Assembly: GCA_032622095.1 (NCBI GenBank)
Contig: CP136069.1
Coordinates: 70,269,319-70,333,318 of the forward strand
Reading direction: 5' to 3'
Origin: Siphonodentalium dalli
Lineage: Eukaryota; Mollusca; Scaphopoda; Gadilida; Siphonodentaliidae
DNA length: 64,000 nucleotides
Numbering within the stretch: position 1 is the first letter of the stretch; each line of letters opens with the position of its first letter. Shown here piece by piece: positions 11,777 to 45,563 of this stretch. The notes beneath the pieces are model-generated. The model was not told the origin of the DNA and ran no database searches. It saw nothing but the letters and a program-made list of their open reading frames with translations. The position numbers and the translations under genes are program-made.

Positions 11777-12197
11777 TCATTTGTTCGTCTGTGGTTTTCC
11801 CCAAATCAGCTTAAAATTTGCCAGAAACATCTTCAGATCTCCACAAAAAATGACAATAATCGCCGATGCAATGATGACGATTCCAAGACTTCCGGAGGCG
11901 ACGGCAAATGGTGTGTCGATTCGAGCGCTGCTCAGCTTCCGTTTGTGGTGTGAAGTTTCGTTTCTAGCTACCCTGTTTGTTTCTAGTTCTTGTAAGATCT
12001 CATGCAGTTCTGAAGCCGTGACATGAGGTTTCTTTGTGCATCTGCATTTTTTGACACATTTGGGCCAGTCACCTGGAAGTATTGTATGATGGTGTATCTC
12101 TTCCCTGAATAATATTTGTATAGATTCATTCAAGGATACAACACAACGGGTGTATGTGATGGGGCGGGGTGGCAGCGAGACAACCACACGGGAACTT
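11777..12197 (-). CDS. Lectin receptor gene: terminal exon (Cys-rich stem, membrane helix, tail)
   Basis: Last exon of the minus-strand multi-CTLD gene. The acceptor is ttctttgtgacag (exon begins at 12197) in phase 2, matching the donor of the mucin exon at 16431. The peptide holds a short extracellular stretch with paired cysteines (WPKCVKKCRC), the amphipathic ELHEILQELETN, two possible N-glycosylation sites (NES, NET), then KRKLSSARIDTPFAVASGSL and a helix GIVIIASAIIVIFCG, a short cytoplasmic tail and TGA. The Cys cluster, basic KRKLS and a single C-terminal helix form a tail I know from lophotrochozoan lectin and EGF-type receptors (family memory, not searched). The upstream ATG at 12257 belongs to intron. 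Topology: type I, about 20 residues inside. Confidence 0.75.
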
Positions 12198-12199
12198 CT

Positions 12200-12747
12200 G
12201 TCACAAAGAAGTATAATTGAAATCAATTTATTTCCACGAAATAGGACAGAAAGTTCCATTTGTGAACATTATACTGTGCGAATCTGAAGCATATAGGCCC
12301 AGAGTTTTTTGTTTTAGATAGATAGATTTATTTATTTGTACAATAAGCATAACATTATACAGTTAAACTAAATGATATTGTACAGGGACTGCAGACTTCC
12401 TGCAGTTCCTTAAATTAAAAACAAATTACCCACTAAATAGCGGTAATTGTCAAATGATCAGTATATATATAATATATATAATATGATATCCGCAGACCAA
12501 TTCAATTGTACATGTAGGCGTGAAATGTCAATACAAATATGTCATGTAAGTATATCATGTAAATAAGGACAGAAAGACAGTGAACCTTAATACTAGTCAT
12601 ACTATAGTCATAGTATAGTCATAGTCTTTTGTAACACGTTTAAGTGAAAGTGTGTAAAACCGGATGTTTGCTTATGTTTCCGGGGGAATAACGGAAATGT
12701 GTCTTTAAATAGCAGGTTTTGTAGAAAGTTTGTTGTCAGAAAAATAG
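12200..12747. other. Intron with a probable retroelement 3' tail
   Basis: A stretch of about 110 bases from 12310 (gatagatagatttatttatttg, then tacaataagcataac and agggactgcagactt) reads like the reverse complement of a LINE/SINE 3' end. Something similar follows the TA microsatellite at 55200. The rest is AT-rich with short cat/agt near-repeats at 12590-12625 and no coding signal. Confidence 0.35.
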
Positions 12748-13312
12748 ATATGTCTAATTTTGGTACGCAGGAAAATATCAGAACGGTGTACCCTGTTGTT
12801 ACGTCGGGTACAAAGGGTACATTTCAGAAGTATAAATTTAGAAACTTATAAACCATATTTTCGGAACTAATTTACAACCCATTGGTATACACACGGGGTA
12901 CACGTGGCTACTTGTTACTTTACCTATCAGTTAATGTTACATTGGTTACTTTTATTTAGTTTTCTTATAAATCCCAAGGTACCTGGTTACATGGGGTACA
13001 AATTAGACAACATATTCCCGGAACTACTTTCAGGCCCATTGGCACATGGGGTACACATGGTTACTTTTGATTACTTTACCTATCAATAATGTTACATTTG
13101 TAACTTTTTTTCTTAGAAATCTCAAGGTACCTGGTTACATTTGGTACACATTAGAGAAATTATTCCCGAAACTACTTTCAGGCCTATGGCCACATAGGGC
13201 ACTGAAAGTAATTCTAGGAATATGTTTTCTAATTTGTACCCAATGTACCCGACGTAACAACGGGGTAGAAAGTTTATGATTTGTTTCGGCGTACCAAAAT
13301 TTGTCATATATG
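12748..13312. mobile_element. TIR element with internal ~185 bp tandem units
   Basis: The outer arms are 12748-12800 and 13245-13312, starting atatgtctaattttggtacg and ending in its near complement cgtaccaaaatttgtcatat; the gttacgtcgggtac block near 12803 pairs with gtacccgacgtaac near 13250. Between them, two or more direct units of about 185 bp share the ggtacctggttacat, ttcccg-aactactttcaggcc and ggggtaca blocks. The ORFs in it follow this repeat and are not genes. It is intronic to the lectin gene. Confidence 0.55.
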
Positions 13313-13534
13313 CAGAAAGACATAGAGCATATATAAACAGCATCACGTGAGTAAATTGAAAATGGGAATTTTAGTGATGTAATCACCAACTATGTCGCGC
13401 TTTACGGTTGTTTAGTTGCGTGTTTTCTTTTGTTGTATTCAGCATGCAAGAGGGCGTTCATTACCTGTGTCGGATATGGTAAAACTAATAAGCGTCTTGT
13501 TTATGGTGCGTCAATATGACGGGCAAGAAAATAT

Positions 13535-15950
13535 CAGGTTTGCACCATGTGACTTACTTGACCAATGAACAAAATAGTACAGGAAAATATCCGATGGAGG
13601 CAGTGCACGCAATGGCATGTTATCGTCTTTGGGTGATGTGTGTTCAACTTGGTTGGTGGTCATCGTCATCCGTTAAATAATCCCCAAGGGATGCGCTGGT
13701 AACCGTTCACACACTCAAGTTATGATCATACAATATTATCGCCTGTTTCAAAACTTGACTTCATAATTCTATGTTAGATTGGTTGACATAGTCACTGAAC
13801 TACTATATGGACAATTATGTGTGTCGGGGGCGTATGTATTTTGAGGGTTTCCGTTGACGGAGTATGTCCATGTTGGATTCCCAACTGCACCCACCCATTG
13901 AACCAGGCCAAATCCAAAGAATACATAATTCATGCACCTCTCCCCTCGTCTTTGAATTCGCACCTGGTACCTCACAACCCTTGAATTTTGACTGGACATC
14001 ATGCAGTCATGGAGGGACATAGGATAAATTCCAAACCAATATTTTGACCAAAAGTAGGAAGAAATGCAAATGTTGGTCTAAAACCACAAATTCCACATAC
14101 ATTACTGGTTGGAAAAGCTGACTACCCATTGTTGGTGTGAAATGTCTAACTAACATTGTGTCAGATATGACATTTCCAACTAGTTGGCGAGGGTCCCGTG
14201 TCCCCATATGCACCCCTGTAAGTTTGGTAACGTAATATACACAACAGCTCCACGAACCGAACAAAATCCACAACTCTAGAACAATTCATATGAGTTCTAA
14301 TTGGGGTGGGGTCATCCGATTTACCAGAAAGCCATAATAACTTTTGTCACACCACACAATTATGCACGTACTATGAATTTGTAACATATGCGTGTACCTA
14401 TTTCCAAATAACGTGACCACTTTCTCATTATATATAGAAGGTATTTAGGCATGAGAGCAGCAACGTTGCTACAAGTCCATGGGTGCCTCATCTCCCCGAC
14501 TTCGGTAATACATGTCAAAAGTAGGAAATTCCATGTTATTAACTGCAAATATGGACTATAGGTTGTTTACCGGACGAAATTCACTTGACCCAGCACGACT
14601 CATACTCTTCTGACTGAGATTAATCAACGCCATCTAATCCGCCGCGTTCTCGATGGCGTAATCTTTGCAGCAAGAAAATATCAGTGTACAATTGTACCTG
14701 ATATTTTCTTGCAGATATGTACTTGCAGCTACAAGTGGACGCGCCAGTATGGTGCGTTCACATGAAGCTGCAAGAAAATATCTGCAAGAAAATATCAGGT
14801 ACAATTGTACCCAGTTATTTTCTTGCTGCAAAGATTACGCTCGTGAAAACGCGGCGGTTTTGATAGCGTTGATTGAGCTCAATCATAACAGTATTAGTCG
14901 TGGTGGTTCAAGTGAATTGCGTCCGGTAAACAACCTATAGTCCATATTGACAATTCATTACATTATGAAATTTTCAACTCAACATATATTACGGTAGTCG
15001 GGTGGGATGAGGCACCCACCGACCTGAAGCCACGTTGCTGCTCTCGTGCATAAAAACCTTCGATATATATGATAAAATGGTTACGTCATTTGGAAATAGG
15101 TTCACGCCTGTTATACTTTCAAAGTACATGCATATGTGGGATGACAAAAAATATTTATGGTTTTGTGGCAATCGGATGACCCCACCCCCACCGATACCCC
15201 ATATGAAGTTTTGGCTTGGTTCGTGGGGTTGTGGTGAATATTACATTACCATATACACAAGGGTGCGTGTGTGGACATGGAACACCCTCTCACTATGGTC
15301 AAAGTGTTCACTAGTTGGAAATTTCAAACCTGACAAAATATTAGTTGGAAATTTCACACCAACAACGAGTTGAGATTGGTCTGGTAGTCTGATTTTCCAA
15401 CCAATAATGCATGTGGAATTTGTTGTTTTAAACCAACATTGACATTTCTATTACTTTTGGTCAAAATAGTGGTTTGAAATATCTTGGAGGTCCCTCCCTC
15501 CCCGGTGTTCAGTCAAAATTTCAGGTTAAAAACAAGGCATGTGAGGTACCAGGTGGGAAATTCAAAGCCGAGAGGAGGGGTGCAAATTTAATTATGTGAT
15601 CTTGGTATTTGGGCTTGGTTCAAGGAGGGATTGCAGTTGAAAATCCAACATGAACATCCTCTATATATATATACGTCCCTGCACACATCCATATAATACT
15701 TCAACGATTCTGTCAACTCATCTAAAATGGAATTAGCAAGTGAATTGTTGAAACAGACGATACTATGTGATCGAGTGCGTGAATGGTTACCATCGTATCC
15801 CTTTGAGATTATTTAACGGATACAGATAACCACCAATCATGGTGAACTCTTATCACCCACAGGCGACAACATATCAGTGCACTGACTCCATCGGATATTT
15901 TCCTGTATTATTTTTTGCATTGGTCAAGTAAGTCACATGGGGCATACCTG
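13535..15950. repeat. ~2.4 kb imperfect palindrome (giant foldback) in a lectin intron
   Basis: The arms 13535-14740 and 14750-15950 are reverse complements along most of their length. Outer ends: caggtttgcaccatgtgac against gtcacatggggcatacctg. Further in: the ccgatggag block, cctctcccctcg against gagaggaggg, gaccaaaag against cttttggtc, aactagttgg against ccaactagtt, and a core at 14655-14840 where gcgtaatctttgcagcaag pairs with cttgctgcaaagattacgc. The motif gcaagaaaatatcaggt recurs at the core several times and just outside the left end (13523), with a variant at 12768. Divergence between arms is visible by eye, so the structure is not recent. No transposase; short ORFs only. Confidence 0.8.
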
Positions 15951-16430
15951 TGTCGCTATAAATAACTTGTCATGTGGTCCATGCAGTATGACGCCACAGC
16001 ACATACTAATATCGCCTATATAATTATTTATCAGATGCTTCAAACTGGCGCTATTTTTAGTTATGTGACAACTCTGCGACTGAAGACATTCAGACACTCA
16101 CCGAATGGCTACATCGCTTTGCTGATACTATGTTGTGATTGGTTGATTCTGACGTAATACTTGTTTGTGGTAATAGGGATCCCCAAATACTCCAGACTCA
16201 GTACAGCGTGATAGTTGGTGAGTCTGTGTTTTAACCGGAACTGGCTGATAGCCCAAAGATCCCATTTCGGCTACCAGTGGACTTTTTATACCGGTTTGTT
16301 TTCTGTCAGTCCGGGGAGTCTGTGTGGTGTTCGTGTGCCCGGCGGCATTGAGAAATGTGAGTAATCACATCCGACATCCCCTTTGCCACAATAGCATAAA
16401 ATACAAAAACTACGCAGTGTGTCGCCTCAC

Positions 16431-17679
16431 TTCAAGTAAAATAGTAAATTAAAATCGTAACACGCACTCATTTGTCTGCTTCTCGTTGTTACTGACGTGG
16501 TTGTCGCGGATACATTCGAGGTTGTTGTGGTTGTCGATGTTATGAATGTGACTGTTGGGGTGCTTGTCTCTGTTGTTGTGGTTGTCGATTTTGACATCGG
16601 GGTTGCCGTTTTTGTTGTGGTTTTTGCTGTTGTTGTGGTTGTCGAAGCTGCCGTTGTCGTGGTTGTCGTTGCTGTTGTGGTTGGAGCTGTTGTTGCGGTT
16701 GTTGTCGATGTTGTAGTTGTTATTGTTATGGTTGTTGTGGTTGTCGGTGTTTCTGTTGTCGATGTTGTTGTGGTTGTCGATGTTGACGTTGTCGGTGTTG
16801 TCGTTTTCATTGTGGTTGTTGCTGTTGTTATGGTCGTCGAGGTTGTTTCGGTTGTCGACGTTTCCATTGTCGGTGTTGTTGCAGTTATCGATGCTGTCAT
16901 TGCGGTCGTCAATGTTGCCATTATGGTTGTCGATGTTGTTGTGGTTGCCACTGTTGTCGTTGTGGGTGTCGAAGTTGTCATTGTGCTTGTCGTTTTGGCT
17001 GTAGTGGTTGTAGTTGTCGATGTTTCTGTTGTCGTTGTGGTCTTGGTTGTCGCTGTTGTTGTCGTTATAATTGTGACTGTTGGGGTGTGTGGTTCTGTTG
17101 TTGTGGTTGTCGATGCTGCCGTTGTCGTGGCTGTCGTTACTGTTGGGGTTGGAGCTGTTGTTGCGGTTGTTGTCGATGTTGTGGTTGTTATTGTTGTGGT
17201 TGTCGATGTTGTTGTGGTTGTCGATGTTTCCGTTGTCGATGTTGTTGTGGTTGTCGATGTTGCCGTTGTCGATGTTGTTGTGTTTATCGATGCTGTTGTG
17301 ATTGTAGCTGTTATTGTGGTTTTCGATGTTGTTGCTGTTATATTGGCTGTTGTTACGCTTGTCGATGTTGTTGTGATTGTAGCTGTTGTTGTGGTTTTCG
17401 ATGTTGTTGTGGTGGTTCCTGTTATATTGGTTGCTGTTGTGGTTATCGCTGTTGCGGTTGTCGTTGTCGCTGTAGTTGTCGATGTTGGTGTGGGTGTAAC
17501 GGTTGTTGTGGTTTCCGTTGTCGCTGTAGTTGTCGTCGTTTTTGTTGTTGTTTCAGTTGATATTGTCGTCGTAGCCGTTGTTGCCGAAGGGTCCGTCCAC
17601 GTTGTTTCTCTCGTAGTTGTTGATCTCATGTTCGTTGTGAATGAGCTCCCCGCTGTCAAGCTTGTTGTGCTGTAACCGG
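16431..17679 (-). CDS. Lectin receptor gene: mucin-like Thr-rich stalk exon
   Basis: The exon starts at 17679 after acceptor cttattttag in phase 1, completing the codon left by the CTLD exon at 21770 (...CQAES-AGYSTTSLTAG). It ends AA at 16431 before donor gtgagg, phase 2, which fits the terminal exon at 12197. About 415 codons follow almost entirely in Thr, with some Ala, Ser, Val, Ile and occasional Pro, in imperfect repeats (TTTTTSTTETSTTTTT-like). The C-terminal end, SRQMSACYDFNLLFYLK, leaves the low-complexity zone. Such a segment would be densely O-glycosylated and act as a rigid stalk between lectin heads and membrane. The frame stays open over 1.25 kb of triplet-like repeat, and only this frame has matching splice sites. 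The antisense Val-rich frame is a shadow. Confidence 0.8.
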
Positions 17680-17839
17680 CTAAAATAAGTGGTAGTCCCA
17701 TGTATCAGTCTCCAAGTAATCGATATAAATTGTATACATGTAAATGTAATTAAACAACAAAAACAACACGATCATATAACGCGATTAAACGTCATAATTA
17801 GCGACTTACTTGTCTCAACAAATATGTTAGAAACATTGC

Positions 17840-18066
17840 TTAACCCTTTCTATACAGAATGGATTCTCTCATTCGGTTATACAAATATTCATTGGCATGG
17901 TCTATTATTCAGTTCTATAGTATGTATTCAGGTAATAAACAGACAGTAAAGCAGACAATATAAGTGCAGAGTGATTCATATTCATTGTTCATTGTTGGGA
18001 AATGTTCAGATAATAAGTTCAACGAACGATTACTCATCAATGAGTATTTAGTATAGACAGGGTTAA
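17840..18066. mobile_element. piggyBac-like MITE (copy C)
   Basis: 227 bp with TTAA at both ends (17840-17843 and 18063-18066). The ends TTAACCCTTTCTATACAGAA and agtatagacagggTTAA are inverted relative to each other. The body has aaatgttcagataataagtt, shared with copies B and D. It lies in the intron between the mucin exon and the fourth CTLD. Confidence 0.75.
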
Positions 18067-18069
18067 CGC

Positions 18070-20940
18070 CCACATTGACCCTATATATATCCTGGATGCT
18101 TGCAACTCATAATAGCTCGAATAGCCGATTTCCATTCGTTTCCAACGGCAATCGTTTCAAAACAATATACAATGTTCTGGTTGTCACAGTATCACCCCAT
18201 GTGAACTGGTCCTGTTCTGAGAGGTAGCAGCGGTTAAGCTCCTGGTCGCACACTCTTAGATATAACAATCCGTATAGGTCCTTCATAGTACCTATATATC
18301 TTTTAGAACCTAAGGAATAGGTACCGAGAAGGATTAGGTTCTATATATTGATATAATACCTAAGCATTTGGTACTAGCCGATCTCGGAACGAAATGGTGA
18401 CCCACGTGATTGCATCACGTGATACACGATACAATTCCGAAAACATAGCGGCGTCCGGCCACTTGAGGCGATTGAGTTTTTTACAGTATATAAAAATGGA
18501 CGGAAGACACAAACTAATAGCAGGCTTACACACATTATGTTGGAATCGATCTCGGCCTCGGCTTACATTCTGTAGCGTGTGCCCAATTAGGTACGTTGTT
18601 CTCTGACTGGAGGTATTTAAGAATAAGGAAGTGAACTTCTCGGAAATTTATCGACATATTTTTTGTGTGAAATTGGACCTAACTTGCTTCTTAATAACCT
18701 GGAATATTGTTAGCACTGTGTGGATTATGTTTGTATATGAACGGGACAAGATGTTATAACCTCCGAAAATTAACGGGCGCTAATCATTGATATTTTCCAC
18801 TGCAAGAGAGCAGCAATGTTCAGTGAACCGACAGACAGCAACATGCTGAGTCATTGAGTGCAGTGGGGTTACACTTGACATGCACGACAGTATTGTGAAT
18901 TTCAAAAGACAGATACTTAAGATTAACAAAATTAAAAACGGTCAATTAACTCACAAGAGTCAACCACTGGTGACTAGAATTACGAGACATACAACAGTGT
19001 AGAAATTAGTCAGAATTATGACGTCACAGATCAGTCATGAATCATGAGTCAGTCACAAGTTTGATGGCTACAACATACAAGTACATGTACAAAGGACGAT
19101 GGATCACATTCTTCAATTTTCATCGAAACGTGATTTCAGAACCATGTCGCCATAATATATCGCCGGTTAGAGTCTGCTATTCTTTTGATCGTAACGCCGG
19201 TGACGCTGTGATATTGTTGTGATATATTTATGGAGTGACGGATAATCTCGGAGACACGGATCAAATTCTGGGACACACATTATCACTGAATCCGTCACAA
19301 GCTTGTATTAGAAGTTGACTTTGTTCACTGTAACGTACTACTGTACAGCTATGCTCTAATTAATCGTCCCTTTTAACAACGTTGTAGGGCATTAATGACA
19401 CCGGTTATACCTTACCGCCATTCAACCACGGTCAAGTGGTTGACATGTGGCAACCGCTAGTAATCTGTCTATGGTACTAGTAATACTGTTTTGCGACCAC
19501 TGTACTCCGCAATAATTTTTCACATGGCCACCTTACACCCAGTCCAGCTTTTCGTGAGCGCCATGCATCATGTTAACAAAACAATATTTCAATTAATAAT
19601 TTGTTTACGGTTAAATCTGGTTAAATCAGCATTCGAAGTTGGCCACTGACCGACATTTGCAACCGCATCATCAATGCAGCGTCAAGCCATGCCAGAAATA
19701 TACACTCTGTGGTGGTTATAATGCTGACTTTAAAAAGGTACGAAGGTCGGCCATGGCAGGATTGACCATGGTTAATAGCATCAATGCAGTCGAGTAACTT
19801 GGTAATATCGGTGGTCAACGTCGTTAGGGGGGGGGGTCAATTAGAGCTTAGCTGTATACATACATGTAGACCATTCCAATGTACAGATGCATCATGTTCT
19901 TATCAAAACATGTGTGGCTATCATTCTCAACGATTCGGCCATTTCCGCTTTTCCAGGAAATAACCTCTCCCATAATTGGAAACCATATTCGCGAAATTCT
20001 ACATTATATGGCTCTGGTGATCAGGCAATGACATTGACTCGATGACGCATAGCTGCGAATGGAGAATAATTTATTCACTATGGCTGTACCAAACTGGATT
20101 ATATATTAAATGCATATATAAGCCCCATATTATACCTGTTAATTATCGATCGATTAATTTATGGCCGCGCATTTAAAAATACCCCGAATTATTCTACATC
20201 CCCATGCATCTGCCATTTAAGTCATATAGGTCAACAAGATGTTAGCTCATGTTACGTCGCTTCGCATTTTTAGTGTGTTTTATTTGGATATACAACTCAT
20301 TACCCAATTGGCAGTTGACCAATCAGCGAACAGGGTTTAGTGTAACACATACGCTATATGTAAATATTTAGGTCGTGGTAGTTGTTACTGTTGCTGCTGC
20401 TCCGATAATCGAATGACATATTTCGCTTGAAGGGATCCGAGGCCGCAGCGGGTTAATATGCATACAATATAAACGTCTGTAAAACAGCACCATATACTAA
20501 GAGGAATATGGAGAAATAGATAAACTGTTTTCTTATATTCATTATAGATAGTTCTCTATTAACGAAATTTCGCAACAACTGAATTGCTATATAAAATAAC
20601 TGTTACGGCGTTTTGTTAATAAATATCGATAATCGTGTAGTATATTAAAATATAGAGTCTGATTATGATTTCCGAAATTTATCAATGCTTGACCTTTTCC
20701 AATGTTTAGCATCAAGTGTTGATTAAACTTTGGTATCTTATTGGATTAATTGGACTTGTATCGGACCATTAAAACTGGCTGATGTTGCTCATATATGTAC
20801 ATCAGCCGGGTTTATTTGATAAACCATGTGATTCCATTTCGTAGCGGCCCAACACACTATATTAGATGATTTGCGAATCATGTGATTGAATGACCATATA
20901 TACCACCCATAGTCATGTTGTCCTACTAATAGGCTATGTC
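18070..20940. other. Intron, mostly featureless
   Basis: 18251-18375 is a small imperfect palindrome beginning cacactcttaga, the same start as the ends of the element at 27290-28486, with taggttct and aggtac pieces. A G9 run is at about 19828. No ORF here shows a domain and no extra CTLD exon was found. Confidence 0.4.
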
Positions 20941-20945
20941 TATGG

Positions 20946-21311
20946 GTCAAACTGATGCCGTTACAAAACATTATCGTTATGTTTGCTAAAGTTATTTTTT
21001 TCGCGGTGTTCGGATAATCTGAACATATCAGGAAAAGCAATTATGTGTATATCAAACATTTTAAACACCATATATTTTGCGAAATATTTTAATACTGTTT
21101 GCAGTAGTTGATGCAAATCGACAATTATCTAGTTGGCTAAACACGTCGTTTGCAAACACCAGTGTAACCGTTATTCAATTTTTTAGTGTATGTTCTTGAA
21201 TGTTTCATAAAGATACTGACTTTTTCACAAATAGCTCAGGTCACCAAAATCCGTGAAAGTGACAACTTTAGAAAAAAGTGGAACTTTTTCGTAACGGCAT
21301 CAGTTTGTCGT
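20946..21311. mobile_element. ~365 bp MITE with AAACTGATGCCGTTAC ends
   Basis: Left end AAACTGATGCCGTTACAAAA (about 20948) and right end ttttcgtaacggcatcagttt (about 21308) are inverted repeats, both flanked by gtc, a possible 3-bp target duplication. No coding capacity. Intronic to the lectin gene. Confidence 0.5.
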
Positions 21312-21454
21312 ACCAGCATCATAGCACTTCAGCAGAAACCACCACCATCATAGCACATTAGCAAGACCAATTGACCAGGGGTAAAACCGGTGTTATACGG
21401 CGGCGATGCAAGTCTATCCGTCTGAACATGACTATAATTACCAAGAGCTGATAT

Positions 21455-21720: not shown

Positions 21721-21769
21721 ATCATACGGATGTTAGTAAATTTGAGTGTCCAACGAAGAATATACTCAC

Positions 21770-22041
21770 CCGACTCAGCTTGGCATACAGCGACGGCGAA
21801 AGTTGGGACGGATGTAGGCAACTGAATATCAATGGCAGAACAATCGACATTAAACCACCCAAAACTAAACTTATCAACAACAACACAGTCTCTATTAACT
21901 CCGCCGATAGGAAACTCTGGAAACCAGTGCTGCCATGATGGGGAGGTTATGCCCCCATCCCAGGATGTCCAGTCGCCTTCCATGTGACGGTCGTTTGTTC
22001 CAATGTGGAAAAATCCAAGAACAAAATATTCGTCATGCAAG
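21770..22041 (-). CDS. Lectin receptor gene: CTLD 4, second-half exon
   Basis: Acceptor ctttttttcag, exon from 22041 in phase 2 (joins INE-V-LHDEYFVLGF), donor gtgagt at 21769 in phase 1. The reading includes VLGFFHIGTNDR (the WIG-like strand region), WTSWDGGITSPSWQHW, NRDCVVVDKFSFGWFNVDC and VAVCQAES: the last two long-range Cys of a C-type lectin fold, but FHIG in place of WIG and no EPN/QPD motif. Classical Ca-dependent sugar binding at site 2 is therefore unlikely. It is longer than its sister exons by about 11 codons before the last Cys. It is the CTLD nearest the stalk. Confidence 0.85.
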
Positions 22042-24723: not shown

Positions 24724-24904
24724 ACTTCGTTGATTATGAACTGTCGGATGTTGTCGTCAGTGAGTTCCACTATATCTCCCCCGCTCTGTACACAGAAGTC
24801 GACTGCAGCTAGCGTGCTCACGTATCCACTGTTGCGCCAGTAACATTTTCCTGTTGTGTTGAATGTGTGTCCAACAGTTTCACATGGCGAGACATATTCG
24901 TCGA
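24724..24904 (-). CDS. Lectin receptor gene: CTLD 4, first-half exon
   Basis: Acceptor gaatcattgcag (exon from 24904, phase 1), donor gtgagt at 24723 (phase 2). It reads DEYVSPCETVGHTFNTTGKC then YWRNSGYVSTLAAVDFC and SGGDIVELTDDNIRQFIINE. This is the N-terminal half of a CTLD: the extra N-terminal Cys, a KCYW strand, A-x-x-x-C in helix 1, GG, and a Q-F helix 2. Joined to 21770-22041 it gives one full domain of about 150 residues. It was not an ORF by itself and was found by reading the reverse strand for the pattern. Confidence 0.85.
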
Positions 24905-26802: not shown

Positions 26803-27041
26803 CTGGCCGCTCGCAGATTGATAGAATGGTGGCGTCCCGATTCAAACAATGAGTATCGTACCACAGCATAGAGCTCCTATCTAAATACACACACCTCCCG
26901 TCACCGTTTGGCTGACCTGGTGCCCATTTCTGATAATCAACGACAGTTTCCCCACACACCCAGTGTGTTCCGTTATGGAAGGGACATATCCATAGGTAAT
27001 CAAACTGCGGCGTCAGCCCACCACCTAATCCACTGTCGAAT
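26803..27041 (-). CDS. Lectin receptor gene: CTLD 3, second-half exon
   Basis: Acceptor caattttcag (exon from 27041, phase 2, joining GNL-FDSGLGGG), donor gtgagt at 26802 (phase 1). Motifs: DYLWICPFHNGTHW, WAPGQPNGDGRCVYL, MLWYDTHC, ILSICERP. The loop tripeptide is QPN followed by GDG, and WYD stands where WND is expected. The Ca site 2 region is partly kept, so sugar binding is possible but its specificity cannot be read. N-glycosylation sequon NGT present. Confidence 0.87.
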
Positions 27042-29129: not shown

Positions 29130-29304
29130 AAATTTCCGGCTAAGAAATCAGTTTCATTCTGATCCTGCAGAAAACTAACAGTGCCGCCATGCACGGAACA
29201 GGCCGCCACTGCACCGAATATATCGACAAATTCTGAACTCAGCCAATAGCACTTCCTCGTGAATTTGTTGTAAATAGCGTTGGTTGCCCCGCATGATCCT
29301 GTGC
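29130..29304 (-). CDS. Lectin receptor gene: CTLD 3, first-half exon
   Basis: Acceptor gcacattttag (exon from 29304, phase 1, completing the glycine begun at 33116), donor gtgagt at 29129 (phase 2). Reads GTGSCGATNAIYNKFTRKCY, WLSSEFVDIFGAVAACSVHG and GTVSFLQDQNETDFLAGNL: N-terminal Cys, KCYW, A-x-x-x-C, GG, F-L helix. It joins 26803-27041 in frame. The longer ORF to 29368 includes intron. Confidence 0.87.
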
Positions 29305-29684
29305 CTAAAATGTGCATGGAAACTATTCGATACTTCCTACGATTTAAATGGTAATTTCCATGTTGCATTAGAATTAATTCTGGTAGAGCCTGTCAATAAC
29401 CGCACCACTAATACCCATGCGGTGCACTATAACCTAGATACACCAACAAGACTCGTGCTAACATTTTCAAAGAAATGAAATTTAAACTAACAACAGTTAT
29501 TATAACCACAGCCGACATAAATCAAGGACACACGCAGCACATTGTCCATTGCGTGCCACTATAGCCAGTAAAAAACTACGAATTGATGACGTCACTTGAT
29601 AAATCGACAATAAGAGGTTATGTGCATGCTTTATGTGTGTTTTTTTGTTGTGAACGTTTTCGATCGTTTGACTTCTGCTTTCAG

Positions 29685-30350
29685 ATTTAGTTGAAAACAC
29701 TATACCAGCCGCAATAGGCGTCACTGAGTGCTTGCCGAAACGATGTGTAACTCCTGTTCAGTCAAGTGAACTACAGTTGGGCGGATATGAGTTATTCTTT
29801 AATACAAATCCAAAACGTGGTATAGTGATCTACACCAACACATTGTTAAAAGCAGAGATATGTAATTCCGTTGAAGGATCAGACTTCGATGAGCAAATAT
29901 GGTGCAAATGGAACATTAACGGCACGAATGTGTTGTTGGGTGTATATATCGAAGCCCAAACAGTGACCGCAAACACAAAATCATTAAATGATGTTACGGA
30001 GCAATTCAGTCCAGACAAAAGGTTAACAGGCAACGTGATAATCACTGGCGATTTCAATTTCCTTGATATTCTCTGGAACAACGGAACAACAACATCAACA
30101 GAAGACGAGGATGTTGTGAACGCAACAAAAGAATCCATGTTAGAACAACTTATAACGGAACCGACTCGACACAGAGTCTACTTACCTATATACGTCGAAT
30201 TATCGCCATTTAATGTCGCCCAATCAATGACGTTGTTGCTGGCATCAAAAGTCCACGCACTAGCTGACTGTGGCGTGATTGTACTGTTAGCTTCTACCAT
30301 TCCGTTTGCTAAAATATTGAGCACATGTCGGACTCCTCATCTCGAGTCTA
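29685..30350 (+). pseudogene. LINE endonuclease domain fragment
   Basis: Part of the AP-endonuclease-like domain of a non-LTR retrotransposon (CR1/L2 type by memory). It reads PAAIGVTECLPKR, GGYELFFNTNPKRGIVIYTN, EQIWCKWNINGTNVLLGVY, then VIITGDFNFLDILWNNG with the GDFN motif that holds catalytic Asp/Asn, and ITEPTRHR. After that the frame drifts and the product ends at 30353. No reverse transcriptase follows in the next kilobases, so it is a truncated, decayed copy. It lies in the intron between CTLD 3 and CTLD 2, antisense to the lectin gene. Confidence 0.8.
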
Positions 30351-30448
30351 AATAATTGGATGTTTTAACAATTTGTATAAAGAGGAAACATTATCGAAAC
30401 TCAAGTACCGTGCCAGTGGAATAAACCTCTCATTCAAACACATGTCTA

Positions 30449-33115: not shown

Positions 33116-33363
33116 CGTCCCTCTGGCATAGAGCTAGCGCCAGCATTCCTGTGCATACTACTGATGTCCACCCACCAGAGAGCCCGTCAATCATCGCGCA
33201 GTTTGCACCGGTGTTTTTAATGAATTTTGACGCCGGCATTCCACTGCTTGACCAATTGAACCAGACCTGAGTCGAACCATCCTCAGCCATCCAACCAACT
33301 TTATCTCTCTCAATGCCGATCCAAGCTTTTGTCGATAAGTGGTTGATATCAGTTATATTTATT
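33116..33363 (-). CDS. Lectin receptor gene: CTLD 2, second-half exon
   Basis: Acceptor gcttccatcttag (exon from 33363, phase 2), donor gttagt at 33115 (phase 1). Reads INITDINHLSTKAWIGIERD, VGWMAEDGSTQVWFNWSSSG, TGANCAMIDGLSGGW and ALALCQRDG. It has the WIG strand, W-x-x-DGS, an NC-A-I strand and the last Cys, but no EPN/QPD-type triplet; it is probably a non-sugar or atypical binder. It joins in frame to 39536-39716 upstream (KTNA-INITD). Found from reading the reverse strand; it is not a stand-alone ORF. Confidence 0.85.
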
Positions 33364-33369
33364 CTAAGA

Positions 33370-35765: not shown

Positions 35766-35774
35766 GGATGCAAC

Positions 35775-35974
35775 TTTACGACTGCACGACATTACTACTT
35801 TACAGTATCACGATGCTACGACTATTCGATTCATTGACATTACGATAATACGACTCTACGACTTAACCAAACTACGACTCTACAACTATTCGACGTGACG
35901 ACTTTACGACCACATTGATCAACAACTCCATGGCGTCACACTTTGACGACCATAAGACTATACGACTCTAAAGG
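35775..35974. repeat. Degenerate CTACGAC minisatellite, left block
   Basis: Irregular repeats of tacgactctacgac, gactttacgaccat and ggcgtcac. The order gatcaac-ctccatggcgtcaca, gacgaccataagactatacg is found again at 37825-37880, to the right of the inserted element. The two blocks are one satellite split by the insertion. Confidence 0.65.
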
Positions 35975-37672: not shown

Positions 37673-38010
37673 TATGCATGCGACTTAACAACTCTACGAC
37701 GTCACGACTTTACGACCATATGGACCATTGACTCATAAGACTCTACGGCGTCACGCCTTGACGACCACTAGACTTGCAACTACGACCTTACAACTATACG
37801 ACGTCACGACTTTACGACCATATTGATCAACGACTCCATGGCGTCACACTGTGACGACCATAAGACTATACGACTCTACGACGTCACGACTTTACGACCA
37901 TATGACTCCACGGCGTAACGACTTGACGAACCTGAGACTCTACGAATCTAAGACTCTACGACTCTACGACTTTATGTGTCTACGACTTTACGACTTCACG
38001 GCCGACTGGA
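37673..38010. repeat. Degenerate CTACGAC minisatellite, right block
   Basis: Continuation of the satellite at 35775-35974: cgacgtcacgactttacgac, ggcgtcac, actctacgactctacgactt and related units, ending near 38005. Confidence 0.65.
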
Positions 38011-38164
38011 TGGCGGAAACCTGGTACATTTTGGAACATATACATGTATATAGATTATGCATGTGACATTATTGCAAGTCGTGCAACAAGATTTCATTTG
38101 ATGACTGCCTTCGTTCTTAGTATTCGTGACAAACAGCGCTGGACATTCTAATTGAAGCTCAGCT

Positions 38165-39480
38165 CAGCCGTGAGTGTCTCTCCAGAAAGCCAGAGGACAG
38201 TTAGGCATTAAGTTCATATAATTCCTATAATGGATTGTTATTTCTGCACATTCAGTTACATTGGCACGTCAGCGGGTTACAATTAACTATATTTATATAA
38301 GGATTAACTGTCATGTTGACTGTTTTTATGGAGATGTAACCGTGAGGTAAGTGGTCATAACTTGTATGTAAAACCCGAATCCTTATATTTATACACATTT
38401 AGCGAAAAAGCCACTTTTGTAAATGTATTTAAATCGAAAAGTGTATCGTGACAAAACCAGCCCAAAATAACCCATAGCACCCTTGGCAAAAGTTAACAGG
38501 AACAGTTGAAACCCGATGTTTTATTAAGTAAATCCTGCGCGAATCCATATGCGCCCAAAACATTACGCGTTCGTCTTTCCAAACCCAAATGACGAATCGA
38601 TGTTGTTATGAGCTTGTAGTTATTAGCTGGTGCGCATTCACCGAGAAATAACTGCAACTAGCCACGTGGGCGCCGACCAATCAGAATGCTGGATTTAGTG
38701 ATGACAAAACTTAGTATGTAAATATACTGAATTAATGCATATGTCCCCTCACCCAGACAGGCCACAGAACACTTCGGCAATAGGTCCATATACTGGGTTG
38801 TTCTTTCTGTATATTTAGTTACCGGTTCAGCGGTTTATATATAGTTAATAGATGTTTACACTATAAGCTAATACGCTTGCCCACGCAGACCTACATGTAT
38901 ATGTATTTTCCCCTTCTATGCCTAACCGTATATGTGATCGGATTTGCTGCTTTTTCTCTCGAAGAGAAAGGAAACGAAATATTAATAGAGACGTTATAAT
39001 GAACTCCGAAGTGTTCAGAACTGGCCCCGATTACTACAAGTTCCCCCCAGACAGGCTGCAGAACACTTCGACATTCGGTCAATATACTAGGTTGTTGTTT
39101 CTGCACTTTTACACACCGTAGTTACCGTGTCAGCTGATTATACATAAAATATGTTTAAACTAAACTAATACATACGCGTACGATATAATGAAGTACTGCA
39201 TAAACCTGGCCCCGATTACTACTAATTGAGAGATAGCAGAACTCCTGAGTATCAGATTTGGATACTGCTTTGCTGTTTCTCAAAAAGCACTTATTCGTTG
39301 TCAGGTTGAAGACACCTTTTGGGATAATATCGATGAACTGTATATAAAGTTCGTTATTCGATATGTATTGCCCTGCTCGGAGCTGTCCCCATATTATCAC
39401 AATTTTCCTCTTCGAGACCGGCCACAACACAATTTGGCATCAGGTTTATAAATTGAGTATTGTTTTTATACACATTTAGT
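38165..39480 (-). pseudogene. Row of decayed copies of the CTLD 2 first-half exon
   Basis: Upstream-side copies resemble the intact exon at 39536-39716 and its flanks. The clearest is 39170-39345, which keeps catacgcgt (donor side), tggccccgattactac, atcagatttggatactg, ttgctgtttctc and gtcaggttgaagacacc in the same order as the exon. Partial copies lie at 38990-39120 (gacaggctgcagaacacttc), 39405-39520 (ccggccacaacacaatttgg), 38755-38840 and, weakest, 38170-38290. Stops and indels break all of them. An ORF at 39155-39430 (VFNLTTNKCFLRNSKAVSKS) preserves part of one. This is tandem exon duplication followed by decay. Confidence 0.65.
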
Positions 39481-39535
39481 TACATCGTCACATGGGTTTA
39501 TGAGTAAAATATTTTGAAACTAAACTGTTACATAC

Positions 39536-39716
39536 GCGTTCGTCTTAATGAAGTCCTGTTCAATGCTGTCCTCAATTACTACTGGTGTTCCATCAGACAG
39601 ATCACAGAACGATTGAGCATCAGATTTGGACACTGCGTTGCTGTTTCTCCAATAGCACTTGTTCGCTGTCGGGTTGAAGACACCGGTGGGCTCACATGGG
39701 TGAACTGTATCTGGAA
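39536..39716 (-). CDS. Lectin receptor gene: CTLD 2, first-half exon
   Basis: Acceptor gacaattttcag (exon from 39716, phase 1, completing the codon from 42595), donor gtatgt at 39535 (phase 2). Reads PDTVHPCEPTGVFNPTANKC, YWRNSNAVSKSDAQSFCDLS and DGTPVVIEDSIEQDFIKTNA: N-terminal Cys, KCYW, A-x-x-F-C and an acidic helix 2. It closely resembles the CTLD 4 first half (both have KCYWRNS), so the two domains are probably duplicates. It partners with 33116-33363 about 6 kb downstream, across the decayed copies and the 1.7 kb element. Confidence 0.85.
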
Positions 39717-40074
39717 CTGAAAATTGTCAGTATGTGCACATCACTGGCACTGTTATATGCTATCAGAGACGTGGCGAAAGGAGCTTGGTGCATGCGATGT
39801 TTGTAGTTTTGTGTTCCATGTACATGTATGTTATTTGCACTGTTTCTGGAACTGAAAAAAATATTATCGATATGCGTACAAGGGTGCTACGGTTCACTGG
39901 TGCTGTTTGATGACCTCCGGAACGTGGCGACAGGGTTTTAAATTCCCAACTTTTTAAACTCAATTAGAAGACTTGATAAGAGACAATATACGAAGTTTCT
40001 CGTGTCTTTATCTCTATATGAAAAATATCGCCATCATTTTGCATATATGGCAGATTTTGGTGCAGAAAAAAATA
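39717..40074. other. Intron: small direct repeat of the exon border
   Basis: actgtttctggaactgaaaa at about 39839 repeats the exon acceptor region tgaactgtatctggaactgaaaa (39701), and catcactgg...gacgtggcgaaagg near 39740 recurs as ttcactgg...aacgtggcgacagg near 39894. This is another short tandem duplication with one decayed acceptor. Confidence 0.45.
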
Positions 40075-41490
40075 CAGCGCATTTGTAACCAGTTACTGGG
40101 TTACAGATACGTCGTGTTTTTTTTTACAAGTCGACTCAACGTTTGCTCGTGTGTTAGCTCCGACCAGTAACCCGGTTACAAATATTTTTTTGGCATTTGG
40201 AGTTACATTAGGAAGTCGTTTAAAAAATCCGACTTGCTTGTTTCTTGTCACATAGAAAATATTTCGCCCATCCTTCTTTAAAAAGGGTTACAAAGTTACA
40301 TTTGGAAGTCGTTTAAAAAATGCGACGTGTTTTTTGTTACATAGTTACAAATGCTTATCAGAAAATTACTCCAATTAGAAAAATGAAAATATTTCACCTA
40401 TCCTTGCTAAAAAAGGGTTACAAAGTTACACTTGGAAGTCGTTTAAAACTGCGACGTGTTTTTTGTTACATAATTACAAATGCTTACCAAAAAAATGTAA
40501 CTTTGTAACCCTTTTTTAACAAGCATGGGTGAAATATTTTCATTTTTCTAGTTGGAGAAATTCTCTGATAAGCAATTGTAACTATGTGACAAAATACATG
40601 TCCCATTTTTGAAACGACTTCCAAATGTAACTATGTGACAACAGCACGTCGTATTTTTGAAACGACTTCCAAATGTAACTTCGTGACCCTTTTTAAAACA
40701 AGGATGGATGAAATATTTTCATTTTTCTAATTGGAGTAATTTTCTGATAAGCATTTGTAACTATGTAACAAAATGCACGTCGCATTTTTGAAACGACTTC
40801 CAAATGTAACTTTGTAACCCTCTTTTAGCAAGGATGGGTGAAATATTTTCATTTTTCTAATTGAAGAAATTCTCTGATAAGCATTTGTAACAATGTATCA
40901 AAAAACACGTCGCATTTTTTGAAACGACTTCCAAATGTAACTATGTGACAAAAACACGTCGCATTTTTGAAACGACTTCCAAATGTAACTTTGTAACCCT
41001 TTTTTTTAGCAAGGATGGGTGAAATATTTTCATTTTTCTAATTGGAGTAATTCTCTGATAAGCATTTGTAACTTTGTGACAAAAAACACGACGCATTTTT
41101 TGAAACGACTTCCAAATGTAACTATGTGACAAAAAAACACGTCGAATTTTTGAAACGACTTCCAAATGTAACTTTGTAACCCTTTTTAAACAAGGATGGG
41201 TGAATTATTTTCATTTTTCTAGTTGGAGTAATTCTCTGATAAGCATTTGTAACTTTGTGACAAAGAACACGTCGCATTTTTGAAACGACTTCCAAATGTA
41301 ACTTTGTAACCCCTTTTTAAACAAGGATGGGTGAAATATTTTCATTTTTCTAATTGGAGTAATTCTTTGATAACCATTTGTAACTATGTAACAAAAACAC
41401 GTCGCATTTTTGAAACGACTTCCAAATGTAACGTCGTAACAAAAAACACGTCTGATATTTTTGACTTGTAACCTCTGTAACCCGGTTAGA
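40075..41490. repeat. Satellite array with an internal inversion
   Basis: A compound repeat of a ~48 bp and a ~131 bp part sharing cgacttccaaatgtaac, tttgtaaccctttttt, caaggatgggtgaaatattt and ctgataagcatttgtaac. From about 40505 to 41460 the units run in one orientation; from 40180 to 40500 they run the other way (ggaagtcgtttaaaa first). The array is therefore head-to-head with an axis near 40495-40505. At least five long units are on the right side and two on the left. Short outer pieces (gtaaccagttactgggttac) mark the left end. ORFs inside are repeat translations. Confidence 0.8.
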
Positions 41491-41714
41491 AATGCATAAC
41501 GTATATTTCGTGCACCAAATCTGGACATATCTATCATTTTGTCCAAAAGGTTTTTCTACAAACAATAACCACTTCTAAAGTTTGCAGTAATATTCAAGCT
41601 ACCATTAAACCATAGACTCATACATATGGAGCCATCTCAATCACTCAAGATCACCCCACACGTGCCTGGAGACTGGGCGATCAGTCACACACACTATAAA
41701 TGTTATAGTATAGC

Positions 41715-41925
41715 ATCAACAATACAAATACACTTCCAGTTATCTCGGGGTTGATATAAGCTTTGTGAATCGTCCATTCTGATTCCCCACCCACATCTAC
41801 CGTGATACATTCGAAATAGGTATATACACATCTCAGAGATGGCCACCATAAGCATCCATTTACAGTCAATCGGTATCCTCGTTGATTCACAACCTATCAT
41901 GTGTAATGCTAAAGGGGCTAAGGCA
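41715..41925 (-). pseudogene. Decayed CTLD first-half exon
   Basis: After a possible acceptor cacatgatag (near 41896) one frame gives CESTRIPIDCKW, and the next frame gives RLTVNGCLWWPSLR, YTYFECITVDVGGESEWTIH. Together these echo the CTLD first half (early Cys, C-x-WW, F-x-C, GG-E), but the motif is spread over two frames. It lies between the complete CTLD 1 and CTLD 2 and has no matching second half. A frameshifted leftover of exon duplication is the simplest reading; a genuine exon with unusual sequence is less likely. Confidence 0.4.
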
Positions 41926-42594
41926 CTCAACGTGGGTTCATGTGAAATAACATAGTTAAAAACAACTATCTCCAACAAGTACATGAAAAAATAAGTCGAA
42001 TTTGTTTTTATTTTCGTTTTTAATAACTCTCCAATAATGCGACTGTGCATGGCATAACCATTGTCATGTAAACATTACTGTTACAGAGGAATTACCGATA
42101 AAAGTCAAATTAGTCCAATGAAATACCAAAGTTTATTTTAAATTTTACAGGAAAAGGTCAAAGCTTTGAAAACTATTCAGAAAATCATTCTCAGACTAAA
42201 ATGTTTGAACGTATTGCATGCACGATTCGCGATGTTTTGTAGCAAATCACTTTCGTTGTATTTAAGTAGTTTGCGAGTTGCTTGCGAAAGTTCCCCACCC
42301 ATACCAGGACAATATTGTTGGTATATTGTCATTATGTATAATATGAAACGTTTAATATGTATATATATATAGTGTCAATAAAGAATTAATAAACAAAATT
42401 CACCATGCAAATCTCCAACTGCCGCTGATTCAGACATGAAATAGCCAACTGTCCCAAACTTTGAACAACGCTGAGGGAGGGTGAGACCCTCTCCCTTGAC
42501 GTCAAGTCCATTCATATATATATACGTTGCGTTATCGACAACTGATAATTTACATACCACCACGAGTCGTCACAAGGAACGTTAGACATCCTAC

Positions 42595-42830
42595 CTTGCA
42601 ATTCACAGACCGTTAATGGGTTCAAATCTTCCATCCCGCAGAATGTATCAAACCACCGCCAGTTTGCCGGTTGTTCTCTCCATAAAATACATTTACCGTC
42701 GCCGTTCGGCTGTCCTGATTCCCATTTCGTCCACGTCGTGATCGATCCGTCCCAGTTTCTCCATTGATTCATGTTCGAGTCGTACCTACTCCCAATCCAG
42801 AAGGAATCAGTACTGGGTGCACTCGGTATC
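42595..42830 (-). CDS. Lectin receptor gene: CTLD 1, second-half exon
   Basis: Acceptor atgattttcag (exon from 42830, phase 2, joining SDHL-IPSAPS), donor gtagga at 42594 (phase 1; weaker than the others). Motifs: DSFWIGSRYDSNMNQWRNWD, GSITTWTKWESGQPNGDGKC, WRWFDTFCG, LTVCELQ. This is a well-kept CTLD core with WIG, W-DGS, QPN-GDG loop and the last two Cys. CTLD 1 and CTLD 3 share the GQPNGDG loop. Confidence 0.87.
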
Positions 42831-42834
42831 CTGA

Positions 42835-45385
42835 AAATCATTAACATTAGAGACCTCTATCTATCTTGCAATTGTGTCATGGCCTGATTTTTTCTATTAT
42901 AAATATCAGCAATGCTATTTCAGACAGTTATGTTTATGCGGGGGAGTTTTAGACTGAAAACATCTAACTTTTCCCTCCAAGCAATATCAGACAACATACC
43001 GAGGGGGTGATGTCGTGAATAACATCATCGCAGTCTGGGCTGGACAAGGTTGGCGGGGGTCTATCCCCCGACATGGCCGAAAATCGGGAACAATTTCCAA
43101 GCGTGGTCTGAGTTTAGGGACATCTTAGATCGATACATGGCCATTTCGATAAGAAATGAGAACTTGATCCCGCTCACAGAAGCAAGCAAATGTGAAGCAA
43201 TGAACACTCATGCTGTGTACCCTGCCTCCATATATATGATACAAGATAAGTTCCGCATAACACTGAGTGTGAAGAGTTTCCCTCGAACAGCGGACTTATT
43301 TAATTCAGACTTTAGTATGGTACGTGTCCACACCTGGTTAAGTTGTCCTACTAATTTGATATGATGCTGGGATCGTGCTGAATTTCTATGGTCGATGCTG
43401 CTATGGAAAAGATATGCTATTGAGAAAGAGTACCGTAATTTATTCTAAAGTTGTCATGTATAATATAGGATGCGTGGCTAACCCAACTGATTTGAGTATA
43501 CGCCAGTGTTTGTATGAAACATTTAAGAACATACGCTAAAAAATGGGGTTAATACAGTGTATATGACCCAACTCTGACCCAACGTTTAGACAGATAGAAA
43601 GATAGATGAGAAATTAAAAAAATTCAAAGACCAGTTCAAACTCGTCGTAATAACTTGACATAGATCGACACCAAAGCACAGCACAGTCTACAGAAGTGAG
43701 TGTTTTGGCATAAGATTGAAAAAACGAGAAGGAAAATCGCGACCAGTAATAAGTCGCATTCAAAGGAGAAGACACAAGAGACAACGTCACGTTCAACGCA
43801 ATAAAACACAATAAAGCGGAAACACACAAACTGTTGCACGAAATTACGTCTATACTTCAATCCAGACTTCGCACTCTCCAAGAGTTCTGTGAGAAAAAAT
43901 TATTGCAGAACAAATTAATCATATGTAAGAAAGAAACGTACCCACATGAACAAATGACATTTAAATTGGACGAATGTTCAAAATGTTCAAAACAGTAACT
44001 GTTATTGAAGAAAAATGACGGGGAGAATATTGGACTGCTTTGGAAACAAACACTAGTTTGACACCTTTCGTATTTTGAACGACAAAAGATAACTATTACG
44101 AATAGGGTACTACATCACTAGAATTTGTGTTCTTTATATTCGTTGTCGTTTTCCCTATTCATTATTACGATTACAGGTGATGGATTTTCAATAAAACTCA
44201 CAAATGCATGATATATTAATAAATTCGCGGCCATGTTTTGATTTTGTTCTATACCAACATGTAAGTTTTAAAACTTTATTTCAATATTTCAATAATCTAC
44301 TCACCCATCGTGCTCTGTTTTGTCATTATCTCATTCAATTTTGTCTTCCACTTACTACTGACCATTATACACATTATTCTGTTCTGAGGAGGTGGCTCTA
44401 TATATAAGCATTTATCATGCGGGCCTACTATATTTACCAATGAGAATTGAGACAAACTAACTGGATATGAGGGGATATTAGGTTCACATTGATTGACATC
44501 GACCCCATATGAAACGCCAAGGGGGGAGGTATGGATTAATATGGGATTTGTATACGCTATCGTATTTTTTCTTGGAACTCTGCCGCCTCAGGCATAATCT
44601 GCAGTGTATACGCCCTGTCACTATCTCGCGGCCATATTGGATCTACCAGGTCCGGTTCCGTGGTATTAGTGCTACAGTTCAAAGTTTTGGAGTAGCATTC
44701 CATATATGGAACTAATGAATAATAAAAAAGCTTCATATATGGAAATGCTACTCCAAAACTGAGCTGGATGAATCCTATAGGGCCGCGACCCAGTGATATC
44801 CGTTATTTTAGTTTATCGGTTATCAAAGTTTCAATGACTTAAAAACGTAGTACCATGTACCAATACCGGCATATGATATATTTAACTAATTTTAAAGATG
44901 CATAAGTTAACCAACAACCTGAATTGGTACCAAACATCAGGTTACGAGCCATTAACTGAGTGCGTTGACGTTCTACATCTACGTCCATGGTGCGTAACTC
45001 TGACGTGGCATAATTTAATAGTGACTGTGATATGTGGCACGTTTAGCTTACCAGACAATACCAGTATCTAATTCAATTTCTCACATGGAAATCATGATAA
45101 AAGCGTACCATAACTCTTAGTTTCCGGCTACGTTGTCATGTGCACATTAATCTCACTGAGCCTCATGATGCTCAGCGAGATTAATTCCGAGTTCGGCTAG
45201 CGCCTCACCCGATATTAATCGCACTTCGCCTCATCTGACACTGTATATTCGTCAACTAATCGCAATGTAATTTTAATAATGCGTGTTGCCAAAAAATCGT
45301 CACCCCTTCAAGTAATTATATGCATATTGGTGTCATCATGTCTCATTATTATATCTTTGGGAAGAATTAGAAAGTGTTTAAACCA
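42835..45385. other. Intron: palindromes, otherwise nothing recognised
   Basis: 44676-44766 is a hairpin (agttttggagtagcattcca against tggaaatgctactccaaaac). 45147-45187 is a smaller one (attaatctcactgagc against gctcagcgagattaat). The ORFs 43050-43364 and 43614-43881 show no domain. No extra CTLD exon was found. Confidence 0.45.
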
Positions 45386-45391
45386 ACTCAC

Positions 45392-45563
45392 AGATGATCC
45401 GAATTGAATTTACTTTCTAAGCTGTTGTTGACAGCAGCGGGAGACCCGCCATCTCTAGCACATAATTCCGCTCCTGTTGTGAAGTTGCCCGGCTCATCGC
45501 TGATCCAGAAACATTTGTAGCCAGATGGGTAATATACAGCGTTTGATGCTGGACATAGTTTAC
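45392..45563 (-). CDS. Lectin receptor gene: CTLD 1, first-half exon
   Basis: Acceptor gaatatactccag (exon from 45563, phase 1), donor gtgagt at 45391 (phase 2). Reads GKLCPASNAVYYPSGYKCFW, ISDEPGNFTTGAELCARDGG and SPAAVNNSLESKFNSDHL: early Cys, KCFW, A-x-L-C, GG, helix 2. Sequons NFT and NNS. This is the most upstream exon of the gene that I can call with confidence; the phase-1 start means at least one more exon (signal peptide or another domain) lies at higher coordinates. Confidence 0.85.

Follow-up and report, generated by a model that had tools for sequence, protein, structure and literature searches.

In the 64,000-nucleotide stretch of the Siphonodentalium dalli genome analysed here (the window; C9:70269319-70333318), we confirmed a real animal gene that encodes four C-type lectin-like domains (CTLDs), a threonine-rich stalk carried by a single exon, and a membrane exon, and found it to be a member of a multigene family with about fifteen relatives that have a common layout as far as it can be read. 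The gene runs on the minus strand from 45563 to 11777, where ten exons (E1 to E10) are joined at nine junctions, all with GT-AG sites, into one frame of 1,069 codons that ends in a stop. Intron phases alternate, with phase 1 at the CTLD borders and phase 2 within the CTLDs, and each of the four joined CTLDs scores above the PF00059 cut-off of 22.6 bits (42.0, 38.6, 31.3 and 26.0 bits). An earlier reading of the same stretch (the original prediction) had proposed these ten phased exons, and they were borne out by splice sites, joined frame and domain matches alike. When second-half exons were tested singly, two of three passed PF00059, with E6 slightly below the cut-off, and a PDB search with CTLD1 matched solved CTLDs of surfactant proteins, the mannose receptor and others.

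The arrangement is more than a product of chance, because paralogous loci repeat the exon series. Searching the genome (2.23 Gb, nine contigs), we found all ten exons in the order of the window in two other copies on C9, at 21.20-21.26 Mb and 38.97-39.02 Mb, which upholds the assignment of CTLDs, stalk and membrane exon to one gene in the original prediction. In these copies E1-E3, E5-E8 and the tail exon (E10) were placed by similarity and E4 by profile between E3 and E5 (25.9 bits, enriched profile, and 14.4 bits, first profile), together with a stalk exon; E4 in a third copy is weak (8.2 bits, E 0.0012).

Stalk, membrane and start exons

The stalk exon, E9, has 404 codons, among them 241 Thr, 40 Ser and 14 Pro, and is followed by the membrane exon, so that E9 and E10 together show the transmembrane mucin-like feature of a long Thr/Ser/Pro-rich ectodomain beside a membrane span. 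The open frame of E9 proves little alone, since three other long frames overlap it (367 residues on the same strand; 404 and 257 residues on the opposite strand). Its codon positions are biased (chi-square p 3.5e-11): of 403 codons, 323 have C as second base and 234 have A as third. The second position varies least and the third most, which is the pattern to be expected where Thr, Ser, Ala and Pro are maintained. We read E9 as coding because of this bias and because 14 of the 15 paralogs examined have a Thr/Ser-rich exon at the same place, after the last CTLD exon and ahead of the tail; for the remaining one, C5_E, the fetched stretch stops before the expected place.

In E10, a CxxxCxC cluster is followed by a charged stretch, a membrane span with a peak 19-residue hydropathy of 2.55, and about 21 cytoplasmic residues. 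The tail beyond the membrane holds no Tyr in the window copy, and thus no YxxL-type motif (immunoreceptor tyrosine-based activation motif, ITAM, or hemITAM); by eye, only the 39.015 Mb copy among 16 tails has such a sequence, a YSLL directly at the membrane. As a separate observation, 8 of the 16 aligned tails (e.g. L003, L004, L005, L052-L054, L057 and L058) have R-x-[KR]-R (RYRR or RYKR) on the outer side next to the membrane, which is a furin-like pattern; the window copy has HKRK at this position. The Tyr-free tail of the window copy contrasts with that of the oyster receptor CgCLec-HTM, which is described as signalling via a hemITAM (PMC12842671).

The original prediction had given the threonine-rich segment as one exon of about 415 codons, of which the single exon stood and the length did not. 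Its 'Cys-rich' membrane exon proved right as to the membrane, the cysteines amounting to the CxxxCxC cluster and one Cys at the membrane segment. The membrane tail, with the pattern CxC - ELxxxLxEL - TSRYRR - DDTPFA - membrane span - GD, is a conserved feature of the family here, and the label 'lophotrochozoan-type' given to it is a presumption of that prediction. Searches for molluscan haemocyanin (PF14830) and for the annelid erythrocruorin linker (PF16915) matched nothing in this genome and nothing in the control genomes either, and so carry little weight on the taxon. What the prediction missed are the multigene family, the roughly 50-fold range of stalk length described below, and an N-terminal exon beyond the span that it covered.

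E1 begins in phase 1, and therefore a start or signal exon must lie outside that span. At the strictest setting, a signal-peptide exon, E0 (Table 1), was the sole candidate found in the 18.4 kb that lie upstream, a region scanned for CTLD halves and a signal exon only, and no candidate arose in 200 Markov sequences. E0 is an unproven candidate, controls on real sequence being not significant, and no clear signal-peptidase site was seen in it by eye. Eight stretches upstream of paralogs (the 10 kb before E1 in L009-L014; C5 stretches L060 and L061) yielded no signal exon as good as E0, and a tblastx comparison of paralog upstream regions with the window gave repeat-like matches only among the best 30. 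No further half-CTLD exon turned up on the sense strand (E<=0.05), either in those 18.4 kb of the window or in the 10 kb ahead of E1 in six paralogs.

Table 1. Exons of the window gene and the candidate start exon (positions in the window).
Exon	Content	Position	Strand	Remarks
E0	Candidate signal-peptide exon, MRRSLLKHPLSVLVILSLLKTRQIE	49932..50007	-	Donor AAG|GTAAGT; phase 1 fits E1
E1	CTLD1, first half	45392..45563	-	Frame, phase, PF00059 on joined CTLD1
E2	CTLD1, second half; QPNGDGKC and WFD	42595..42830	-	Motif invariant in family
E3	CTLD2, first half	39536..39716	-	Frame, phase, PF00059 on joined CTLD2
E4	CTLD2, second half; triplet MPA, without WND-type Asp	33116..33363	-	
E5	CTLD3, first half	29130..29298	-	Alternative acceptor 6 bases upstream, phase unchanged
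E6	CTLD3, second half; QPNGDGRC and WYD	26803..27041	-	Motif invariant in family
E7	CTLD4, first half	24724..24904	-	Frame, phase, PF00059 on joined CTLD4
E8	CTLD4, second half; triplet FPI	21770..22041	-	
E9	Thr-rich stalk, single exon	16468..17679	-	404 codons; same-place exon in 14/15 paralogs
E10	CxxxCxC and conserved juxtamembrane stretch, transmembrane segment, ~21-residue tail, stop	11777..12072	-	

Besides these exons, the window contains two tandem arrays, one upstream of E1 with a 29-bp unit repeated about 42 times (46200-47438) and one in intron 2 with units of ~130-181 bp (40255-41440). Intron 4 holds a plus-strand endonuclease of a type found in elements lacking long terminal repeats (non-LTR; 29672-30352, PF14529, 29.1 bits). 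Outside the gene, 978-2447 on the plus strand is an open frame of 490 residues with a Major Facilitator match (77.2 bits), and a plus-strand open frame at 6016-6846 falls slightly short of the cut-offs for both DUF3504 (29.5 bits, cut-off 29.7) and QRICH1 (29.1 bits, cut-off 30.8).

Copies in the genome and stalk length

A genome search with the tail exon gave 25 matches, comprising the window itself, the 15 paralogs examined, which lie on C9 and C5, and nine weaker matches (E 8.6e-5 to 0.0097) that were left out of the paralog counts. The four CTLDs gave 77 matches, of which 8 are the window exons and most others fall in the same C9 and C5 regions. Copies other than the two complete ones have subsets of the exons, some of them one CTLD exon and a tail, and the 39.024 Mb copy consists of stalk and tail only; no tail exon was found in the 77 Mb copies or in C5_D. 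Runs of exons were split wherever the order failed. Three such breaks occurred: C5_C and C5_E each have, after E3 and before E6, a half exon that resembles E7 (32%) slightly more than E5 (29%), and at 119 Mb an E5-like match precedes an E2-like one. Second-half exons keep their positional identity: 29 of 30 from the paralogs have their best match in the window exon at the corresponding position. For 20 of these pieces (E2 and E6) the count is in part circular, since similarity had supplied their labels; among the 10 E4 and E8 pieces, free of this circularity, 9 fit.

Several features of the wider genome were observed alongside. On C5, a tandem cluster at 55.04-55.42 Mb holds about five family copies, two of which (C5_C and C5_E) are recent duplicates with a pooled CTLD synonymous divergence (dS) of 0.057. 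On C9, two copies lie in opposite orientation at 76.97-77.21 Mb, and one CTLD3 exon there has no last Cys. Across the genome, PF00059 gave at least 150 scored matches from 1,097 first-look candidates, which points to a C-type lectin repertoire of very large size.

Stalk length differs about 50-fold between copies, from ~33 to ~1,940-1,967 residues. The approximate lengths in residues are 33-44 in C5_A, 36-49 in C5_B, 44-65 at 20.49 Mb, 50 at 137.88 Mb, 60 in C5_C, 62-79 at 119.26 Mb, 64 at 20.41 Mb, 95 at 119.11 Mb, 117 at 39.106 Mb, 143 at 39.024 Mb, 144 at 202.056 Mb, 225 at 202.02 Mb, 404 in the window, ~497-516 at 39.015 Mb and 1,939-1,967 at 21.26 Mb. The longest is a single open exon (L001 1782-7685; C9 ~21.25 Mb) that is ~84% Thr; its 1,939 codons include 1,637 for Thr and 248 for Met. 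Some stalks depart from a simple repeat, that at 202.02 Mb being Pro/Ala-rich and that at 39.015 Mb Ala/Ser-rich. In C5_C and C5_E alike, the start of a stalk exon is also present a second time in decayed form. Mucin rods extend 0.2-0.25 nm per residue, and at this rate the stalk of the window gene would reach ~80-100 nm and the longest ~400-490 nm.

Lectin heads and selection

The original prediction described two CTLDs with a QPN-GDG loop and two that had lost the sugar-binding triplet. This is true of the window copy, where CTLD2 (MPA, WTS) and CTLD4 (FPI, WFN) have lost the motif, and the kept side turned out to follow a family rule, as all 11 CTLD1 (E2) sequences, and likewise all 11 CTLD3 (E6) sequences, have the QPN-x-DG-x-C loop together with the W-x-D Asp. 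Each set consists of the window and 10 paralogs, five of them close C5 relatives; the family matches fetched were 10 of 11 for E2 and 10 of 12 for E6, and the three left out sit at 119 Mb. The 38.97 Mb copy has a full WND in CTLD1. The CTLD2 triplet, MPA in the window, is EPT, QPD or lost in three paralogs, and the CTLD4 triplet, FPI in the window, is EPS, EPT, EPN, EPN, QPA, lost and EPN (the last at 39.106 Mb) in seven. Judged by these motifs, the split into two kept and two lost domains holds across the family for one half only: the kept pair is constant, and the other pair differs from copy to copy. QPN is described as common in bivalve lectins, among which MmCTL4 (QPN/WSD) is reported to bind mannose, xylose, lactose and maltose (PMC12842671).

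Among the window CTLDs, the closest half-exon pairs are E3-E7 (42%) and E2-E6 (35%), and a tree unites E2 and E6 with a support of 0.83; E1-E5 (27%) and E4-E8 (31%) are not clear mutual best matches. These similarities suggest an ABAB origin, in which CTLD1 would pair with CTLD3 and CTLD2 with CTLD4. Intron 3 of the window gene contains a decayed relic of an E3-type half exon (39316-39227, minus strand; 32.9 bits against the half-1 profile).

In the five C5 copies, the CTLD exons are coding and under purifying selection: the ratio of non-synonymous to synonymous divergence (dN/dS) in the pooled exons was 0.25-0.39 in all 10 pairs, the pool consisting of E2, E3 and E6, plus E1 for one pair (E1 of C5_E was not recovered). 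Some single exons come near a ratio of 1 (E3 of B-D, 1.01; E6 of B-C, 0.93), and the 2.53 obtained for the tail of copy B against C and E rests on a single synonymous change and 8 non-synonymous ones, numbers too small to interpret.

Proposed function and known relatives

We judge it probable, at roughly 60%, that the family encodes membrane-tethered, multivalent lectin-like receptors that serve in recognition and whose stalk length changes by in-frame repeats. The product would be a type I membrane protein with the four CTLDs outermost, followed by the single-exon stalk, the juxtamembrane stretch, one span and a very short tail. Its Thr/Ser stalk is probably heavily O-glycosylated, and stalk length would set the distance of the lectin heads from the membrane, with repeat slippage as the presumed source of in-frame gain and loss. 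CTLD1 and CTLD3, with their Ca2+-site-like loop (QPN-x-DG-x-C ... D), are the likely constant glycan-binding part, and CTLD2 and CTLD4, with varying triplets (EPN, EPT, EPS, QPD, QPA or lost), may confer copy-specific specificity or act as spacers. A receptor whose tail is free of tyrosine, as in the window copy, would more plausibly capture or adhere through several heads at once, or else rely on a partner to signal. By analogy with bivalve lectins that have several carbohydrate-recognition domains (CRDs), we infer that it would recognize microbes or other cells, an immune use being the likeliest. More tentatively, copies may possibly differ in reach as well as in binding site, and the repertoire be diversified in both ways: a fixed head pair (CTLD1/CTLD3) and a variable pair (CTLD2/CTLD4) would stand at differing heights over the cell as Thr-codon repeats in each single stalk exon are gained and lost in frame, giving stalks of ~33 to ~1,950 residues.

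Several observations weigh against this receptor reading. Gene, splicing and protein are predicted here from genomic sequence; E0 is only a candidate, with two comparable matches on the plus strand of 1-45563. The stalk scan sought phase-1 exons only, so that the phase of these exons is a fit rather than a test, and stalk-exon donors are weak in 4 of 14 copies (39.015, 39.024, 39.106 and 119.26 Mb). By comparison with mannose-binding protein A, from which we take the positions of the Ca2+ ligands, CTLD1 and CTLD3 of the window have neither the canonical Glu ahead of the third Cys nor the Asn of WND, and that Asn is mostly missing from these two domains in the family as well; Ca2+ binding by them is therefore not assured. 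No diversifying selection was seen in the pooled CTLD exons of the five C5 copies, and an arms race is not favoured there.

A serious if rather unlikely alternative is that these are ordinary, non-immune lectins of adhesion, barrier or feeding in an epithelial glycocalyx, dealing with mucus, food particles or symbionts, and that stalk length follows near-neutral drift of repeats. The purifying rather than diversifying selection on the CTLD exons fits such a role, as do the nearly simple in-frame ACN array of the longest stalk, the lack of a signalling motif in the window tail, and the part that bivalve lectins are described as playing in recognition of food as well as microbes (PMC12842671). 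However, one would not usually expect a fixed structural component to expand into a family with variable CTLD2 and CTLD4 motifs, which is weak evidence against this alternative.

We give little credence to a role in gamete recognition, which the original prediction had raised beside an immune one and where length-variable, repeat-rich stalks do occur in some proteins, but to which no result of this analysis points and with which the conserved CTLD exons sit poorly. It is very unlikely that two genes were joined here, one for a secreted lectin of four CTLDs that stops near E8 and another for a mucin-like membrane protein made of E9 and E10: the introns flanking E9 are long (~4.1 and ~4.4 kb) and the joining was read from genomic DNA, but E8 has a phase-1 donor and no earlier stop, and in the paralogs a Thr/Ser-rich exon and a tail follow the CTLD exons over ~7-80 kb. 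Equally improbable is an unexpressed or decaying copy within an otherwise working family, as might be argued from the relic in intron 3, the missing Cys in the 77 Mb region and the candidate status of the start exon; the ten exons of the window copy are all open, with GT-AG sites.

Among known systems, the group VI mannose-receptor family, which has N-terminal ricin-B and fibronectin II modules, is likewise of type I with multiple CTLDs, and mannose receptor chains were among the PDB matches of CTLD1. Group VI proteins are described as having at least 8 CTLDs (PMC514892), as opposed to four and a mucin stalk in the window gene. Group XIV (CD93, CD248, CLEC14A and thrombomodulin) has, like the window gene, a type I topology, a CTLD, a Ser/Pro/Thr-rich stretch and a single span (PMC11021320); as described there, however, its one CTLD is followed by sushi and/or epidermal growth factor (EGF) modules, whereas here four CTLDs are joined in phase and E8, in the exon set as read, joins the stalk in phase with neither module, and the tails are unrelated by eye.

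Molluscan lectins come closer in the number of heads. ScCTL-1 of the razor clam Sinonovacula constricta also has four CTLDs with differing motifs and a C-terminal transmembrane segment, and is reported to bind bacteria (PMC12842671); compared by description only, its triplets are HPD, EPD, EPN and MPT against QPN, MPA, QPN and FPI in the window, and the passages on it mention no mucin stalk. The scallop lectins CfLec-4, AiCTL-9 and Cnlec-1 share the four tandem CTLDs, and microbe binding is reported for CfLec-4 and AiCTL-9 (PMC12842671, PMC5877582). Unlike the window gene product, AiCTL-9 and Cnlec-1 are described as secreted and CfLec-4 as without a signal peptide, with no stalk or membrane anchor mentioned in these accounts. 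For bivalves at large, expansions of C-type lectins with unusual domain architectures are on record, in a paper whose main text does not mention mucin (PMC10140915). The Rlec family of the prawn Macrobrachium nipponense is a multigene lectin family in which coding tandem repeats outside the CRD vary, as ascribed to slip mispairing; Rlecs are described as having one CRD, 1-9 units of 30/33 bp and a signal peptide, with no membrane segment mentioned in that description (PMC7536079), in contrast to the present family, which combines four CTLDs and a membrane anchor with Thr-rich stalks that reach almost 2,000 residues.

We found no description of the combination of four CTLDs, mucin stalk and membrane anchor in the open-access literature, a coverage outside which subscription papers and preprints lie. 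Each of the three elements has precedents: lectins with several CTLDs, membrane C-type lectins on Ser/Thr-rich stalks, and lectin families whose repeats vary. In the present family, an expanded one, they occur together, on a constant exon plan and with stalk lengths that range ~50-fold among copies. If expressed as predicted, the family would provide a natural series for how stalk length governs recognition and adhesion through the glycocalyx, and a test of whether invertebrates diversify receptors by reach.

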